Made by a program: the position numbers and the translations under genes. Positions 2,030-37,789 of a stretch of DNA of 42,997 bases are shown here, in pieces. The notes beneath the pieces are model-generated. The model saw only the letters and a program-made list of their open reading frames with translations, had not been told where the DNA came from and did no database searches. How positions within the stretch are numbered: position 1 is the stretch's first letter; each line of letters opens with the position of its first letter. The DNA lies in NCBI GenBank assembly GCA_024279685.1, contig JAJRRI010000074.1:1-42997 (forward strand). Reading direction: 5' to 3'. Origin of the DNA: Verrucomicrobiota bacterium. Its GTDB lineage: Bacteria; Verrucomicrobiota; Kiritimatiellia; Kiritimatiellales; Pontiellaceae.

Positions 2030-2092
2030 GTAGCTTCCAGTTCCGTTGTTCCGGTTCCGTTCTGTCGCAACGGAGCTGGAAGCTCCGTCTAC
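2030..2092. repeat. Family I palindromic element, short copy
   Basis: A 63-bp imperfect palindrome. The left arm GTAGCTTCCAGTTCCGTTG pairs with the right arm CAACGGAGCTGGAAGCTCCGTCTAC. It is the same element as the ones at 13479-13566 and 34848-35661, but it lacks the outer GACG on the left arm and has a shorter centre. It sits 17 bp past the rpsI terminator. Confidence 0.75.
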
Positions 2093-2208
2093 GTTCGCTC
2101 AATCTGAACTACCGCCTGAAGTTGGAATCCAAAGGGAGCGTTCTAGGCGGTCTATGTTTATGTTGTTATGGAGTTGAACTCCTGAATTACATAAGTTAAA
2201 CTTGCCAG

Positions 2209-12607: not shown

Positions 12608-13477
12608 ATGTATTTTACAGGAGTATACACCGCATTGGTGACGCCATTTAGACCGAATGGAGATATTGATTTTGAGAAGTTGGAAGAGCTGGTTGAATTT
12701 AATATTGCAGGTGGAGTCGCGGGTCTTGTGCCGGTCGGAACGACGGGCGAATCACCGACTCTGGATGCCGATGAGCATCTGAAGGTGATTGAAACCGTGG
12801 CCATGACGGTAGCGGGACGTTGCAAAATTATCGCGGGTACTGGGGCAAACTCAACCGCGGAGGCGGTCGATCTGACGGCGGCGGCAAAAGAATATAAAGT
12901 CGATGGCACCCTGCAAGTGACCCCCTACTACAACAAGCCGAATAACTCGGGCTTGATACAGCACTTTTCTGCGGTGGCTGATTTAGGGGTTCCGGTCGTA
13001 CTCTATAATGTACCGGGACGCGCCGCCTGCGAAATCCCGTTGGAGGTCGTCGCTGAACTGTCGCAACATGAACACATTGTTTCCGTGAAGGAAGCGGCGG
13101 GGTCCGTTCAGCGCGTCACAGACATTAAGAAGCTTTGCGATATTGAGGTACTTTCGGGCGACGATTCGCTCGCCTTACCCATGATTAAGGAAGGCGCATT
13201 AGGTGTTATTTCCGTTGCTTCGAATCTTATCCCCGCTGAAGTGGTGGCTCTAACCCAAGCCGCACTGGACGGGAATAGTGCTTTGGCTGAAGAGCTAGAT
13301 CAAAAATACGCCCAACTTTTCGCTGATCTATTTATTGATACCAATCCGATTCCCATCAAAGCCGCGATGGCGATGAAAGGGATGCTCGAAGAAACCTATC
13401 GCCTGCCGATGTGTTCGATGACGGCGGATAAAAAAGTTATTTTACGCGCCTCATTGGAAGCCGTTGGCGTGTTGTAA
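12608..13477 (+). CDS. dapA: 4-hydroxy-tetrahydrodipicolinate synthase
   Basis: DapA condenses pyruvate with aspartate semialdehyde, the first committed step to diaminopimelate and lysine. It is a TIM-barrel protein with Lys161 (VSVKEAAGS) as the Schiff-base residue, Tyr133 and Arg138 (LYNVPGRAA) and Thr45/Thr46 (GTTGES); from the ATG at 12608 these numbers coincide with the E. coli enzyme. That and the 9-bp spacing from GGAG favour 12608 over the ATG at 12602. 289 residues. A palindromic repeat separates it from dapB. Confidence 0.95.
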   Translation: MYFTGVYTALVTPFRPNGDIDFEKLEELVEFNIAGGVAGLVPVGTTGESPTLDADEHLKVIETVAMTVAGRCKIIAGTGANSTAEAVDLTAAAKEYKVDGTLQVTPYYNKPNNSGLIQHFSAVADLGVPVVLYNVPGRAACEIPLEVVAELSQHEHIVSVKEAAGSVQRVTDIKKLCDIEVLSGDDSLALPMIKEGALGVISVASNLIPAEVVALTQAALDGNSALAEELDQKYAQLFADLFIDTNPIPIKAAMAMKGMLEETYRLPMCSMTADKKVILRASLEAVGVL

Positions 13478-13478
13478 T

Positions 13479-13566
13479 GTAGACGGAGCTTCTAGCTCCG
13501 TTGCGAAAGAAAGGCCGCATACGCAGTGAACGCTGCATGTGCAACGGAGCGAGACGTTCCGTCTAC
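13479..13566. repeat. Family I palindromic element between dapA and dapB
   Basis: An 88-bp element whose ends GTAGACGGAGCTTCTAGCTC and, inverted, GTAGACGGAACGTCTCGCTC form long imperfect arms, followed inward by CGTTGC / GCAACG. It begins one base after the dapA stop codon. In the transcript it would fold into a large hairpin between the two genes and could lower dapB expression or protect an mRNA end. Confidence 0.8.
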
Positions 13567-13582
13567 GTTGGAGAGAAAAATC

Positions 13583-33358: not shown

Positions 33359-33976
33359 ATGGCTGTATTTGTTAAAATTTGTGGAATCTGCTCCAGGTCT
33401 GACCTCGAGCAGGTTTCTGCTTTTCAGCCCGATGCGCTCGGCTTTATCCAGTGGCCGAAATCAAAGCGTTATGTCGATCCAGAAACCGTCGGCCAATGGA
33501 ATACCCCTGCGGGCATCCGTCGCGTCGGCGTATTCGTCGACCCGGTGGAATCCGAACTCGCACACGCCGCACAATATGGAAGGTTCGATGTGCTGCAAGT
33601 GCATCGAGTATCCAGCGGCTGGACTCTAGATCGGGATCTATTTCAAGGCGTGGAGGTCTGGCGTGCGCTCAATCCTTCGGAGCTTTACTTCGATGAATCC
33701 CGTTTTGAATACGATCGCTATCTGCTCGATTCCTACGATCCAAAAACAGTAGGTGGAACGGGGCAGGTCTGCGATTGGGATAAAGCTCAAGCGTTGATCA
33801 AGGCGTTAAAAACACCGATTTTATTGGCAGGCGGTCTCGCGCCCGACAATGTGGCCGCGGCCATCAAACACGTCCAGCCGTGGGGGATTGATGTCAGTTC
33901 CGGCGTCGAAATCGAACCCGGCGTGAAGGATATGAACAAGGTCGAAGCCTTTATTTCCACCTGCCGCGAATCATGA
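33359..33976 (+). CDS. trpF: Phosphoribosylanthranilate isomerase
   Basis: TrpF carries out the Amadori rearrangement in tryptophan synthesis. The 205-residue TIM barrel has the catalytic Cys in VKICGI (residue 8), ALGFIQWPKSKRYV, GVFVD, the catalytic Asp in YDPKTVGGTGQVCDW, LLAGGLAPDNV and the phosphate-binding GIDVSSGVEIEPGVKD. No other trp gene is in the window. Its stop overlaps the gluQ start (ATGA). Confidence 0.94.
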   Translation: MAVFVKICGICSRSDLEQVSAFQPDALGFIQWPKSKRYVDPETVGQWNTPAGIRRVGVFVDPVESELAHAAQYGRFDVLQVHRVSSGWTLDRDLFQGVEVWRALNPSELYFDESRFEYDRYLLDSYDPKTVGGTGQVCDWDKAQALIKALKTPILLAGGLAPDNVAAAIKHVQPWGIDVSSGVEIEPGVKDMNKVEAFISTCRES

Positions 33977-34851
33977 ATACACTCACTCGATTTGCGCCCA
34001 GCCTGACGGGCTACCTGCATCTCGGCCATGTCCTTCACATGATCCACGTCTGGGGGGTTGCTCGCGCTCAAGGCGGCAGGGTACTCTCGCGAATCGAAGA
34101 CCACGATCTCGCTCGTAATCGCCCCGAATACGAACCGGCCATCCTCGCCGACCTGCAGTGGCTGGGATTTGTTCCCGACCTCGGAATTTCAGCTGAAAAC
34201 TCACCGAAGCCATCGAACTATCGCCAAAGCGACTGCGCCCTTCACTATGAAGAGGCCCTGAATTTTCTCGTGAAAAAAAAGAAAGTCTACGGCTGCGAAT
34301 GCTCCCGCAAGGAGATTCTTGCCAAGCAGTCGGGCGGACAAGGCGAACTGTGTTATTCAGGAACCTGCGCGGAAAAGAACCTTCCGCTCGAAGGCCACAC
34401 CGTGCGCTTCCGTGTTCCGCTCGGTGACATCGACTTTCACGATGTAGCGTTGGGCGATCGCCGCCAAACCCCTGCGACCCAATGCGGCGATTTTTCACTC
34501 CGCGATCGAAACGGCCAATGGACCTATCAGTTTTGTTGCGTGTGCGACGACATCCGGCACGGCATTACCCTCGTCGTGCGTGGTGAGGATATTCTGGACA
34601 GCACCGCTCGTCAGCTTCAACTTTTTCATGCCCTGGAGTACGAACCTCCACATTATTATCACCATCCGCTCCTTACCACCGATTCTGGTGAAAAACTCAG
34701 CAAGCGCCAGCGCCCTGAAAGTATCACCCAATTGCGCGAAGAAGGCCTTCTTGCCGAAAAAATAATCGGCCGTGCGGCCTTTTTCGGCGGTCTCATTCCC
34801 GAACCAGCCCTCCTGTCCGCCCAAGCGGCCGGTGCGATGGTAAAAACGTAG
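33973..34851 (+). CDS. gluQ: Glutamyl-Q tRNA(Asp) synthetase
   Basis: A GluRS-like protein of 292 residues that lacks the anticodon-binding half and so glutamylates queuosine in tRNA-Asp. It shows RFAPSLTGYLHLGHVLH with the HLGH form of the HIGH motif, RIEDHD, the zinc cysteines CECS...CYSGTC, and KLSKR near residue 237 as the KMSKS equivalent. It is translationally coupled to trpF by ATGA. Its stop codon TAG and the preceding base are part of the first repeat of the adjacent array, so the last residue is repeat-encoded. Confidence 0.9.
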   Translation: MNTLTRFAPSLTGYLHLGHVLHMIHVWGVARAQGGRVLSRIEDHDLARNRPEYEPAILADLQWLGFVPDLGISAENSPKPSNYRQSDCALHYEEALNFLVKKKKVYGCECSRKEILAKQSGGQGELCYSGTCAEKNLPLEGHTVRFRVPLGDIDFHDVALGDRRQTPATQCGDFSLRDRNGQWTYQFCCVCDDIRHGITLVVRGEDILDSTARQLQLFHALEYEPPHYYHHPLLTTDSGEKLSKRQRPESITQLREEGLLAEKIIGRAAFFGGLIPEPALLSAQAAGAMVKT

Positions 34852-35661
34852 ACGTAGCTTCCAGCTCCGTTGCACACGCACGGTGCGTCAGCCCGGATTC
34901 TCCGTAACGAAGCTGGAAGCGTCGTCTACACAAGCTCCGGCAGTTCATTCGCGAGCGGCTCCAACGTAGACGTAGCTTCCAGCTCCGTTGCACACGCACG
35001 GTGCGTCAGCCCGGATTCTCCGTAACGAAGCTGGAAGCGTCGTCTACACAAGCTCCTGTAGTTCATTCGCGAGCGGCTCCAACGTAGACGTAGCTTCCAG
35101 CTCCGTTGCGCACGCACGGTGCGCCAGCTCGGATTCTCCGTAACGCAGCTGGAAGCGTCGTCTACATAAGCTCCTGTAGTTCATTCGTGAGCGGCTCCAA
35201 CGTAGACGTAGCTTCCAGCTCCGTTGCACACGCACGGTGCGTCAGCCCGGATTCTCCGTAACGAAGCTGGAAGCGTCGTCTACACAAGCTCCGGCAGTTC
35301 ATTCGTGAGCGACCCGCGCGATGCTCAGAACGTAGACGTAGCTTCCAGCTCCGTTGCACACGCACGGTGCGCCAGCTCGGATTCTCCGTAACGAAGCTGG
35401 AAGCGTCGTCTACACAAGCTCCTGTAGTTCATTCGCGAGCGGCTCCAACGTAGACGTAGCTTCCAGCTCCGTTGCGCACGCACGGTGCGCCAGCTCGGAT
35501 TCTCCATAACGAAGCTGGAAGCGTCGTCTACATAAGCTTCGGTGGCATACGTCCGAGCGGCCCGCGTGATGTTCAGAACGTAGACGTAGCTTCCAGCTCC
35601 GTTGCACACGCACGGTGCGCCAGCTCGGATTCTCCGTAACGCAGCTGGAAGCGTCGTCTAC
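34848..35661. repeat. Tandem array of seven family I palindromic elements
   Basis: Seven 82-bp elements begin at 34848, 34966, 35084, 35202, 35332, 35450 and 35580, giving unit lengths of 118, 118, 118, 130, 118 and 130 bp. Each has arms GTAGACGTAGCTTCCAGCTC and (inverted) GTAGACGACGCTTCCAGCTT around a centre with CACGGTGCG. The 36- or 48-bp spacers resemble the last codons of the DUF2851 gene (inverted: NELQELV, then TAG). The array lies between gluQ and that gene and supplies the stop codon of each. Copies differ by scattered bases. Confidence 0.9.
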
Positions 35662-36992
35662 ACCAGTTCCTGTAGTTCATCCAACCGATGTGTAATTACG
35701 TAGTCGTGGAAGATTTGCATGAGGCCTTGGCGGGCGAGGGCGGAGCGATAGACTTTGGGGGTGTGGTCGGGGCCGAAGAGGCGGTAGGCGGTTTGTCGAA
35801 TAATGTGGTTGATGGGTTCTACGGGTAGGCGGTCTAGATGGAGTTCGGTGGATCCTGTCGCCGCCCGCCACGGCACGAAAATATTGGTGACGATGGCGTT
35901 GGCGCGGGCCGTGCCGACGAGTGCAGTGGGCTTACATACGGTTTGCCAATTGAGGTGTGTATTCCAATAGTTCGGCTGGAATTCGGTGAGTGCAGGTTCG
36001 GGGAGTTGGAAGGCATAGTGTGCGGCTGCCATTAGGCGGCGGGTGGGGTGGTTGGTGGGGCGGAGGCCGGCGAGGGTCCAGTCGGATTTTTCCAACGCCT
36101 GATCCTTGAGTTCCGTGCTTTGTTTCCACCAAATGTCCCAAAGGGTGCGGGTAAAGGTTCGGGTCGTTGTATCCCATGCAGAGTCGGAGTGGGATGGCAG
36201 CAGGCCGGAAAGTCCGAGCAGTAGCGCGTAGGCCTCAGTGGGGGTTGTTACGAGATCTCGTAGTCGGATGAGCGGCAGAAGGGCGGCGATCCGGCGGAAG
36301 GGTCCCTTGTTGTTTTTGTAGCCGAGCGCGGCCATGAGTTCTTCCCATAACAATTGCTCGGAATCCTTGCCTTGCAGTGCGAAAGCGAAGCGTTCGGCTT
36401 TGAGTCGCAATCGTTCTTCGCCCGCGCTTTCTAACCAGTGGGTCTTTTGATCGGGATGCATGCTGAGCAACGGAAAGGGGCCGGATGGGATGGAGTAGGG
36501 ATAGGCGGTGAGATCGATGTTCTCAAATGAAAAGCGGGGGTTGCGGGCAAGGGCCTCCTGCAATGGGATCTGAATCAGTCCGGGAATTTCTAGGCCTTCA
36601 AAATAGACAATATGGAAGCGGACATGGGCAAAGCGCGGATCGCCGCCGTGGCCATGCTGTTTCCATCCTGCGGGGTGGATATGGATTTCAAGATCGCCGG
36701 AAATACGGCGTTGTTCCGTTCCAATCCGCAGGACGGCGTTGAGAAAGTCAGGGCCCGCTTCGAGATTCCAATCGCCCGGGTGCTCGACGGATACGGGCTC
36801 ACCTTCAGAGGTCTTTAATTCGGTGGGTCGGAGTCGAGGGTTGGCCCATAGGCACTGGATATGTCGCTCTCGATAGGGGAAATACCGGAAGGGAGTTGTG
36901 GACTCGTGGACCGCGGTTTTTGAATCCCCGTTACGGTACCGTGAGGCGCGCGGAAAGCAGGATTCTATAGACTGAAAAAAATTAGAATGCAT
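35658..36992 (-). CDS. DUF2851 family protein
   Basis: A protein of about 444 residues. The family's N-terminal signature is clear: ERHIQCLWANPRLRPTELKTSEGEPVSVEHPGDWNLEAGPDFLNAVL and ISGDLEIHIHPAGWKQHGHGGDPRFAHVRFHIVYFEG. The acidic and histidine residues here (EAGPDF, GDLEIHI, HGH, HVRFHIV) suggest a nuclease-like or metal site, but function is unknown. The start is uncertain: ATG at 36992 or GTG at 36998, both without a clear ribosome site; homology begins about 38 residues in. The last codons DELQELV resemble the spacers of the adjacent array, whose first bases provide the stop. Confidence 0.85.
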   Translation of the reverse strand: MHSNFFQSIESCFPRASRYRNGDSKTAVHESTTPFRYFPYRERHIQCLWANPRLRPTELKTSEGEPVSVEHPGDWNLEAGPDFLNAVLRIGTEQRRISGDLEIHIHPAGWKQHGHGGDPRFAHVRFHIVYFEGLEIPGLIQIPLQEALARNPRFSFENIDLTAYPYSIPSGPFPLLSMHPDQKTHWLESAGEERLRLKAERFAFALQGKDSEQLLWEELMAALGYKNNKGPFRRIAALLPLIRLRDLVTTPTEAYALLLGLSGLLPSHSDSAWDTTTRTFTRTLWDIWWKQSTELKDQALEKSDWTLAGLRPTNHPTRRLMAAAHYAFQLPEPALTEFQPNYWNTHLNWQTVCKPTALVGTARANAIVTNIFVPWRAATGSTELHLDRLPVEPINHIIRQTAYRLFGPDHTPKVYRSALARQGLMQIFHDYVITHRLDELQELV

Positions 36993-37091
36993 ACACACAG
37001 AATAATATAAACTTATTAAAATACAATGTGCGAATTATGCCAGATACTTTTCTGTTGCGTACGGAAGGAGGGTGGATAGTATCGGCGCTTT

Positions 37092-37789
37092 ATGGAAACC
37101 ATCAACGACATCCGACAGTTGCCCGAATTGGGTATAGATACGGTTCATATTTGGGGCGTGCACCTGCCCGATGTGCTCGGCCGGATTGATGCCTTGCATG
37201 TGGTACTCTCCGACAAAGAACAGACGAAGGCCGCTCGATTCCGGCGCGAGGCGGATCGCCAATCCTCTATCGCCGCGCGTGGGGCATTACGAACCTTACT
37301 TTCAGGCTACACCGCCGTTCCCGCCGCCGAGATCAAATTTAACTATTCGGAAAATGGAAAGCCGAGCATGGCCGATTCCGACGTCGAGTTCAACGTCTCG
37401 CACTCCGGCGAGTGGGTGGTGCTGGGCTTCGGGCGCAACCGGAATATTGGGGTGGATGTCGAACAGATCAAGTGGGATATGGATGTGATTGGGGTTGCCG
37501 ACCGTTTTTTACGCCGGAAGAAAGGGCCTTCATCAAAAACGCAACCGATCCGCATACCGCTTTTTTTCAACTATGGGCCCGCAAGGAAGCCTATGTGAAA
37601 GCCTGTGGTTCGACACTTTTTACGGAGCTCTCCAGTTTAACCGTTCCGCTTACGGAATGCGGGGAGAAGAACGAATGGATTTTTCAGCGGTTGGAAGCGG
37701 GCTCAAAATATGCCGCCGCCGTGGTCACCGACCAACCGCTGACCGACGTACCATGTTATGATTTTGGAGGATTAAAATGGCAGGATTAA
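37092..37789 (+). pseudogene. 4'-phosphopantetheinyl transferase (Sfp type), split by a frameshift at T6
   Basis: Two frames make one Sfp-type enzyme that would load the phosphopantetheine arm onto carrier proteins. Frame 1 gives EQTKAARFRREADRQSSIAARGALRTLLSGY, ENGKPSM, FNVSHSGEWVVLGF and IGVDVEQI (metal-binding Asp and Glu), up to GVADRF. Frame 2 continues FTPEERAFI and LWARKEAYVKACG, the second motif. The break is in the T run 37505-37510; one more T would restore about 232 residues. As written, frame 1 ends at 37598. A real mutation would remove the WARKEAYVK motif needed for catalysis. A GGAGGG stands 20 bp upstream. The nuclease gene overlaps its end by 13 bp. Confidence 0.8.

Follow-up and report, generated by a model that had tools for sequence, protein, structure and literature searches.

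The stretch of DNA analysed here (hereafter the window: 42,997 nt on the forward strand of contig JAJRRI010000074.1, assembly GCA_024279685.1, from a Verrucomicrobiota bacterium of the family Pontiellaceae) carries an array of palindromic elements at positions 34848-35661, in the junction between two convergent genes. One neighbour encodes a protein resembling glutamyl-queuosine tRNA(Asp) synthetase; its name, gluQ, was taken over from a preliminary description of the window, and Pfam confirmed a class I synthetase domain. The neighbour on the other side is a DUF2851 gene. In agreement with the preliminary description, the array was found to consist of seven 82-bp palindromic units and six spacers of 36, 36, 36, 48, 36 and 48 nt, except that the last unit ends at 35661 and not, as had been given, at 35665 (Table 1). 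Any two units shared 78-82 of their 82 bases, and only 5 columns were variable.

Both ends of each unit are inverted copies of the arm GTAG-ACGnnGCT-TCC-AGCnnCGT. Each arm on its own is a short palindrome that forms a hairpin behind the GTAG tag, as is typical of the GTAG super-family of repetitive extragenic palindromic (REP) sequences, and in all seven units the two REPs lie inverted within one element. The array unit is a head-to-head REP doublet with the anatomy of a REPIN (REP doublet forming a hairpin) or bacterial interspersed mosaic element (BIME). The window contained 16 arm matches, 14 of them inside the array, compared with 0.07 expected from shuffled sequences. The hairpins were strongly supported by folding, with z-scores from -5.9 to -8.3 in four folds (three units, one of them on both strands), and by covariation: in 87 distinct sequence contexts drawn from the loci collected and from the array copies, 139 of 174 cells at the two variable stem positions were paired, whereas the shuffle mean was 83 and none of 2000 shuffles reached the observed level. 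The array also supplies the ends of both genes. The gluQ stop codon TAG (34849-34851) lies in the first GTAG of unit 1, and the DUF2851 stop lies in the last GTAG of unit 7 (minus strand, 35661-35658). No T-tract terminator was present inside the array, and its hairpins are not classical intrinsic terminators.

Table 1. Features of the array, its convergent neighbours and family members elsewhere in the window.
Feature	Position	Strand	Length	Remarks
REPIN unit 1	34848..34929	+	82 bp	two inverted GTAG-tagged arms
Spacer 1	34930..34965		36 nt	DUF2851-tail likeness 16/22 in first 22 nt
REPIN unit 2	34966..35047	+	82 bp	sequence identical to units 1 and 4
Spacer 2	35048..35083		36 nt	DUF2851-tail likeness 18/22
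REPIN unit 3	35084..35165	+	82 bp	
Spacer 3	35166..35201		36 nt	DUF2851-tail likeness 17/22
REPIN unit 4	35202..35283	+	82 bp	sequence identical to units 1 and 2
Long spacer 4	35284..35331		48 nt	DUF2851-tail likeness 16/22; gluQ-tail likeness 16 of last 22
REPIN unit 5	35332..35413	+	82 bp	
Spacer 5	35414..35449		36 nt	DUF2851-tail likeness 18/22
REPIN unit 6	35450..35531	+	82 bp	
Long spacer 6	35532..35579		48 nt	gluQ-tail likeness 22 of last 30; DUF2851 side 9/22
REPIN unit 7	35580..35661	+	82 bp	
gluQ	33973..34851	+		convergent neighbour; glutamyl-queuosine tRNA(Asp) synthetase-like, tRNA-synt_1c
DUF2851 gene	35658..36998	-		convergent neighbour
Second REPIN of the array family	13476..13570	+		between dapA-like and dapB-like genes
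REPIN remnant of the array family	2030..2094	-		

The spacers resembled the ends of the two flanking genes. The first 22 nt of spacers 1-5 matched the DUF2851 tail beside unit 7 at 16 to 18 positions, and for each of these spacers no other placement in the window, out of 83,986, was as good. In each of the two long spacers, 16 of the last 22 positions agreed with the gluQ tail beside unit 1, a level that was reached elsewhere twice for spacer 4 and once for spacer 6; the longer match of spacer 6 (22 of 30) was not reached elsewhere. When translated in the gene frame, spacers 2 and 5 read ...LANELQELV-stop in comparison to ...HRLDELQELV-stop in DUF2851, and spacer 6 read ...AARVMFRT-stop in comparison to ...AAGAMVKT-stop in gluQ. 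HRLDEL or a close variant ended DUF2851 in most of the relatives whose tail was read, which implies that the gene, and not the array, was the source of the spacer tail. The amplified unit most likely comprised the gluQ end, the REPIN and the DUF2851 end. The preliminary description had derived all spacers from the DUF2851 tail and had defined the unit as element plus gene tail. The former held for spacers 1-5 only, the gluQ tail in spacers 4 and 6 having been missed, and the latter was right in including a flanking tail and wrong in including just one. Since both gene ends are part of the unit, the amplification toward gluQ given there was not supported; its direction is not decidable.

We consider it highly probable that the array is a tandem REPIN cluster of the BIME type, that it belongs to a GTAG REP family found throughout the genus, and that it was amplified together with the tails of both genes. 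In the history that we envisage, a transposase of the REP-associated tyrosine transposase (RAYT, TnpA-REP) type inserted a single REPIN between gluQ and DUF2851, and a tandem duplication that broke within the ends of the two genes would have created a unit of gluQ tail, REPIN and DUF2851 tail. The two spacer lengths could then stem from a change in the portion derived from gluQ, and blocks of several units (366 bp, three units) could have been multiplied by unequal exchange or slippage until seven units were present. The suggestion that tandem duplication was seeded by an element inserted at a gene end was supported. Tandem Repeats Finder (TRF) reported a period of 118 for the array, a higher score at 248, and also a period of 366. 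The longest exact repeat, of 128 nt, recurred at a distance of 366 nt, which equals three units and, together with the TRF periods of 248 and 366, points to the exchange of multi-unit blocks. The sequence of either gene end can still be recognised in the spacers, which allows the breakpoints of the first duplication to be located.

Several observations weigh against this interpretation. Spacer 6 matched the DUF2851 tail at only 9 of 22 positions and the short spacers showed no likeness to the gluQ tail (5 of 22), so that the two-tail unit had to be put together from parts. The proposed history does not account for a piece of the array that is displaced to another locus (L061, G000 C104:7729-7876, where G000 is the window's own genome) and has a 47-nt spacer of the long type; this piece adjoins a truncated Y1_Tnp gene of a 340-aa type and open reading frames (ORFs) resembling a group II intron reverse transcriptase, the latter judged by eye. 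The copy number was read from a single draft assembly, which comprises 178 contigs. Moreover, neither a cognate RAYT nor any priA match was found in the window's own genome, and the function, in which the hairpins would mark or protect the 3' ends of both convergent mRNAs, is one that we infer.

The array family is dispersed, as is typical of the GTAG REP super-family, whose many copies lie for the most part at gene ends or outside genes. A search of the own genome (2.69 Mb in 178 contigs) at ≤1 mismatch returned 46 arm matches, 14 of which constitute the array, and none in the reversed control; the further copies on which the preliminary description had made its proposal depend were therefore present. 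A narrower pattern at ≤3 mismatches gave 59 matches versus 12 in the control. Twenty surveyed stretches contained 37 arms, which included 8 head-to-head doublets measuring 69-95 bp. Among 35 arms examined, several lay ≤80 nt from the 3' ends of ORFs and several within ORFs. Family arms occurred in 32 of the 58 genomes searched, own genome included, and the matching genomes belonged exclusively to the same genus, to a second genus of the family or to a second family of the order; no family arm occurred in the 15 genomes sampled from further families of the class. Other REP arrays with flanking sequence were found in G014 (C51) and in the own genome (C43, C124), showing that tandem clusters in this family take in flanking DNA. 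In C51 of G014, seven single REPs of the array family are arranged head-to-tail with a 50-51 nt period (L168 922-1241), and C43 of the own genome carries head-to-tail single REPs of the same family with a period of about 59 nt (L067 1526-1780); each of these two arrays is closed by one inverted arm. Single arms were also seen within long ORFs of Rhs-like appearance (L073 29 and 2165 in C84, L074 1484 in C165, L176 718 and 1285 in G013), all of them in the frame GTA-GAC-G (VD.ASS.V). Elsewhere in the window, at 37092-37789, a 4'-phosphopantetheinyl transferase gene seems to be split into overlapping frames (37092-37598 and 37412-37789), likely because of a frameshift or a sequence error.

An array of this sort is not new in kind, as far as the parts of the published papers drawn on here extend. 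In Pseudomonas fluorescens SBW25 tandem REPINs include flanking sequence, and the largest cluster comprises four REPINs and one REP (Bertels and Rainey 2011, PMC3116915). The two systems are alike in having near-identical REP doublets in tandem with flanks included, which contradicts the earlier opinion that the present array is unlike ordinary REP clusters. They differ in the number of units (seven here), in the arm sequence, and in that the tails of both convergent genes are still readable here. Di Nocera et al. (2013, PMC3733652) described GTAG-tagged short stem-loops that form head-head dimers, lie where convergent genes end, provide genes with TAG stop codons, occur in frame within genes and cluster together with flanking DNA, and reported GTAG REP families in the verrucomicrobium Opitutus terrae. 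The array family shares the GTAG tag, short stem-loop, dimers, convergent ends, TAG stop, in-frame copies within genes and clusters with flanks; neither its sequence family nor the host group Kiritimatiellia is named in the portions of that text used here. We found no description of REP elements in Kiritimatiell- taxa in the open-licence PMC literature. Given that REPIN clusters with flanks, GTAG stops, and convergent-junction and intragenic REPs have been described (PMC3733652, PMC3116915), the array itself is of a known sort, and the novelty lies in a REPtron with the RAYT inside priA, which was seen in relatives and not in the genome of the window.

The array could alternatively be maintained as a selected 3' structure, serving as a read-through barrier, as protection of mRNA ends or as a gyrase/IHF site, and not be a mere leftover of mobility. 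Gyrase and IHF sites are known in enterobacterial BIMEs. We regard this as possible but rather unlikely. Besides the strong hairpins, it is favoured by the state of the same junction in relatives. gluQ was adjacent to DUF2851 in 3 of 29 relative loci (L092, L095, L109), many loci ending before gluQ became visible, and all three conserved gaps held GTAG hairpins of other sequence, namely of the GTAGCrGCG-, GTAGTTCCGCC- and GTAGTGGTG-types. In addition, a REPIN occupies the dapA/dapB junction both in the window and in G023 (L167 4270-4345), the arm subtype of the latter being different. GTAG hairpins were present at 8 of 19 DUF2851 3' ends, window included, and at 6 of 48 control ends (P = 0.016), which is an exploratory result, as the search window had been widened after a first count was seen; that stricter first count (5 of 19 DUF2851 ends versus 9 of 83 controls) was not convincing. 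Moreover, a preference of insertion for gene ends would create the same picture. The gluQ/DUF2851 and dapA/dapB slots could have been filled either because elements inserted at gene ends again and again or because such structures were selected for, and the two are not separable here.

It is improbable that the spacer came from another locus, such as that of the C104 copy, and that its likeness to the gene tails arose by chance or by later gene conversion. The long-type spacer at C104 would fit such an origin, all the more because its 5' part has ten DUF2851-tail bases that are partly missing in the array spacers. However, the match levels of spacers 1-5 were unreached elsewhere in the window, two different gene tails matched in the right orientation and at the right ends, and among the matches listed the spacer occurred in no other genome. 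In the own genome, array and gene tail aside, the spacer motif was matched only at 2-3 mismatches, with totals of 25 versus 24 in the reversed control. About equally improbable is an error of assembly in the copy number or tandem order. The near-identity of the units and the single draft assembly in 178 contigs would make such an error conceivable, but the units and spacers differ from one another, and similar tandem REP arrays exist at other loci and in another genome; since no exact repeat exceeds 128 nt, the assembly is plausible, though not proven. Very little speaks for a miniature inverted-repeat transposable element (MITE) that has terminal inverted repeats of 24 bp, depends on a DDE transposase for its movement and was amplified in tandem. 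The inverted ends and small size are what such an element would have, yet every single arm forms a covarying hairpin of its own behind GTAG, the copies viewed had no consistent target-site duplication that was visible by eye, and the same arms flank RAYT (HUH) domains and not DDE transposases. Finally, despite the regularity of repeats and spacers, an array of clustered regularly interspaced short palindromic repeats (CRISPR) can be dismissed, as the preliminary description had done, because the spacers are not unique and foreign but near copies of each other and of the neighbouring genes, the repeat is dispersed in the genome, and the sole Rfam match over the region (CRISPR-DR) was sub-threshold and outside the array.

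The preliminary description had advised a search for a linked Y1-type (TnpA_REP/RAYT) transposase. The own genome contains several Y1_Tnp loci. Two free-standing RAYT-like genes lie about 3 kb apart in C7 (L085, C7:18547; L088, C7:15749), and each has a REP type of its own at its flanks, GTAGGACGCGG- tandem repeats and GTAGCTCGAAATTCCGTTTCGAG doublets (by eye). They were rejected as cognate on account of these other REP types. The 340-aa Y1_Tnp proteins (C30 type) were rejected too, as a single weak REP match was found in 34 loci and one in the reversed control. In two relatives (G006 and G021) pheS adjoins a priA gene into which a RAYT is fused; in the own genome pheS is cut by a contig end that leaves its last 50 codons, which implies that the priA region is missing from the assembly. 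A linked Y1-type transposase was seen in relatives, where the enzyme lies inside priA; it was not found in the assembled part of the own genome.

In G006 the priA gene contains an in-frame RAYT with a REPIN of the array family on each side (L165 1137-4151, G006 C120). The fusion protein of 1005 aa scored 894 bits, above the cut-off, with the primosomal protein N' model NF004066 and contains the PriA 3'BD, helicase, zinc-ribbon and C-terminal domains; Y1_Tnp (PF01797) was also above the cut-off and the REP-associated tyrosine transposase model NF047646 below it. A RAYT in frame with priA was found in 17 relatives, 10 (of 28 others) from the own family and 7 (of 14) from the second family of the order (L165, L166, L191, L196, L207-L215, L217, L225, L226, L228, L229); one of these 17 frames, that of G023, is truncated because its contig stops within the PriA domain that follows the RAYT. 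No such fusion was found in the 15 other genomes of the class, and in a survey of 387 genomes of the phylum it occurred, among the matches listed (roughly 155 rows), only in rows of those two families. Nor did the matches listed include a second PriA helicase in the fusion genomes. Two PriA landmarks are 121 residues apart in G008, G010, G019, G024 and G027 and 340-430 residues apart in RAYT carriers. In G005 (L216) priA holds a REPIN of the array family at the insertion site without a RAYT, which could be an ancestor-like state or a scar of RAYT loss.

A RAYT tree of 37 rows grouped by host gene. The 17 priA rows required one change, with weak support (46/39); cca was represented by 2 rows and xseA by 7 rows in two lineages. 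Seven of the priA rows, all from relatives of the same genus, formed a supported clade (100/98) in which family arms lay on both sides in 7 of 7. Thus a RAYT flanked by its cognate REPs, a REPtron, was seen in seven relatives, where the flanking REPINs are translated as VDGASSSV...NGAGSSVY-like linkers. The ten other priA-RAYTs had other REPs and no family arms, except three with a GTGG-tagged relative; the contig of L214 starts within the RAYT. The genomes of the clade carried 49, 37, 34, 31, 22, 21 and 10 family arms, in comparison to 0-17 in 14 other genomes of the family with resolved priA (P = 0.0003; the own genome and seven others whose priA was unresolved were left out, and kinship was not corrected for). 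The ratio of non-synonymous to synonymous substitution rates (dN/dS) for the clade RAYT was 0.065-0.112 (6 sequences; 8 of 15 pairs computable, 7 saturated), similar to that of the PriA helicase (0.047-0.110, 15 of 15 pairs). As an open frame kept for the sake of PriA would not alone preserve the amino acids of the RAYT, the priA-lodged RAYT itself appears, judging from these substitution patterns, to be under selection.

RAYTs in frame were also found in other hosts. Among 30 RAYT loci, seven lay in xseA (L185, L189, L193, L194, L199, L200, L204; two were tested with TIGR00237 and the rest assigned by eye), two in cca (L188, L202), two in DUF4080 (B12/radical-SAM) genes (L184, L203) and one in an Eco57I-type methylase gene (L205). 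Some of these have translated REPs of their own, such as GTAGGACAGGCTTCCAGC around 4 of the 7 xseA inserts. In the parts of Quentin et al. (2018, PMC6006769) drawn on here, TnpA-REP subclass 2.4 is characterised by the HUH motif NHVH, WQ and a YI..NP signature and by in-frame REPs inside or beside RAYT genes, and unexpectedly long proteins were discarded as fusions or annotation errors. The present REPtrons are alike in signature and in-frame REPs, and differ in that the whole RAYT lies in frame inside priA, xseA, cca and others. Rickettsia palindromic elements, cited in PMC3733652, are likewise palindromes inserted in frame in ORFs; the passages of that paper used here mention no transposase inside the host gene. 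We found no description of a RAYT inside priA, or of such an in-frame fusion, in the open-licence PMC literature.

We tentatively propose, with somewhat less than even confidence, that the RAYT is a working domain of PriA, seated in a linker, surrounded by translated REPINs and maintained by purifying selection, and that it might couple the spread of REPINs to single-stranded DNA at restarting replication forks; other RAYT lineages, with REP types of their own, would be lodged intein-like in xseA (exonuclease VII), cca and further genes.

The array thus provides a clear fossil of the growth of a REPIN cluster. RAYTs have been described as behaving like housekeeping genes (PMC6006769, PMC8266576, as far as the parts drawn on here go), and lodging in priA could help to explain why they persist. 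A RAYT inside an important host gene would be shielded from frameshift and nonsense mutations and, with selection at the amino acid level, would have a concrete route to persistence; it also offers a testable link between the spread of REPINs and replication forks.

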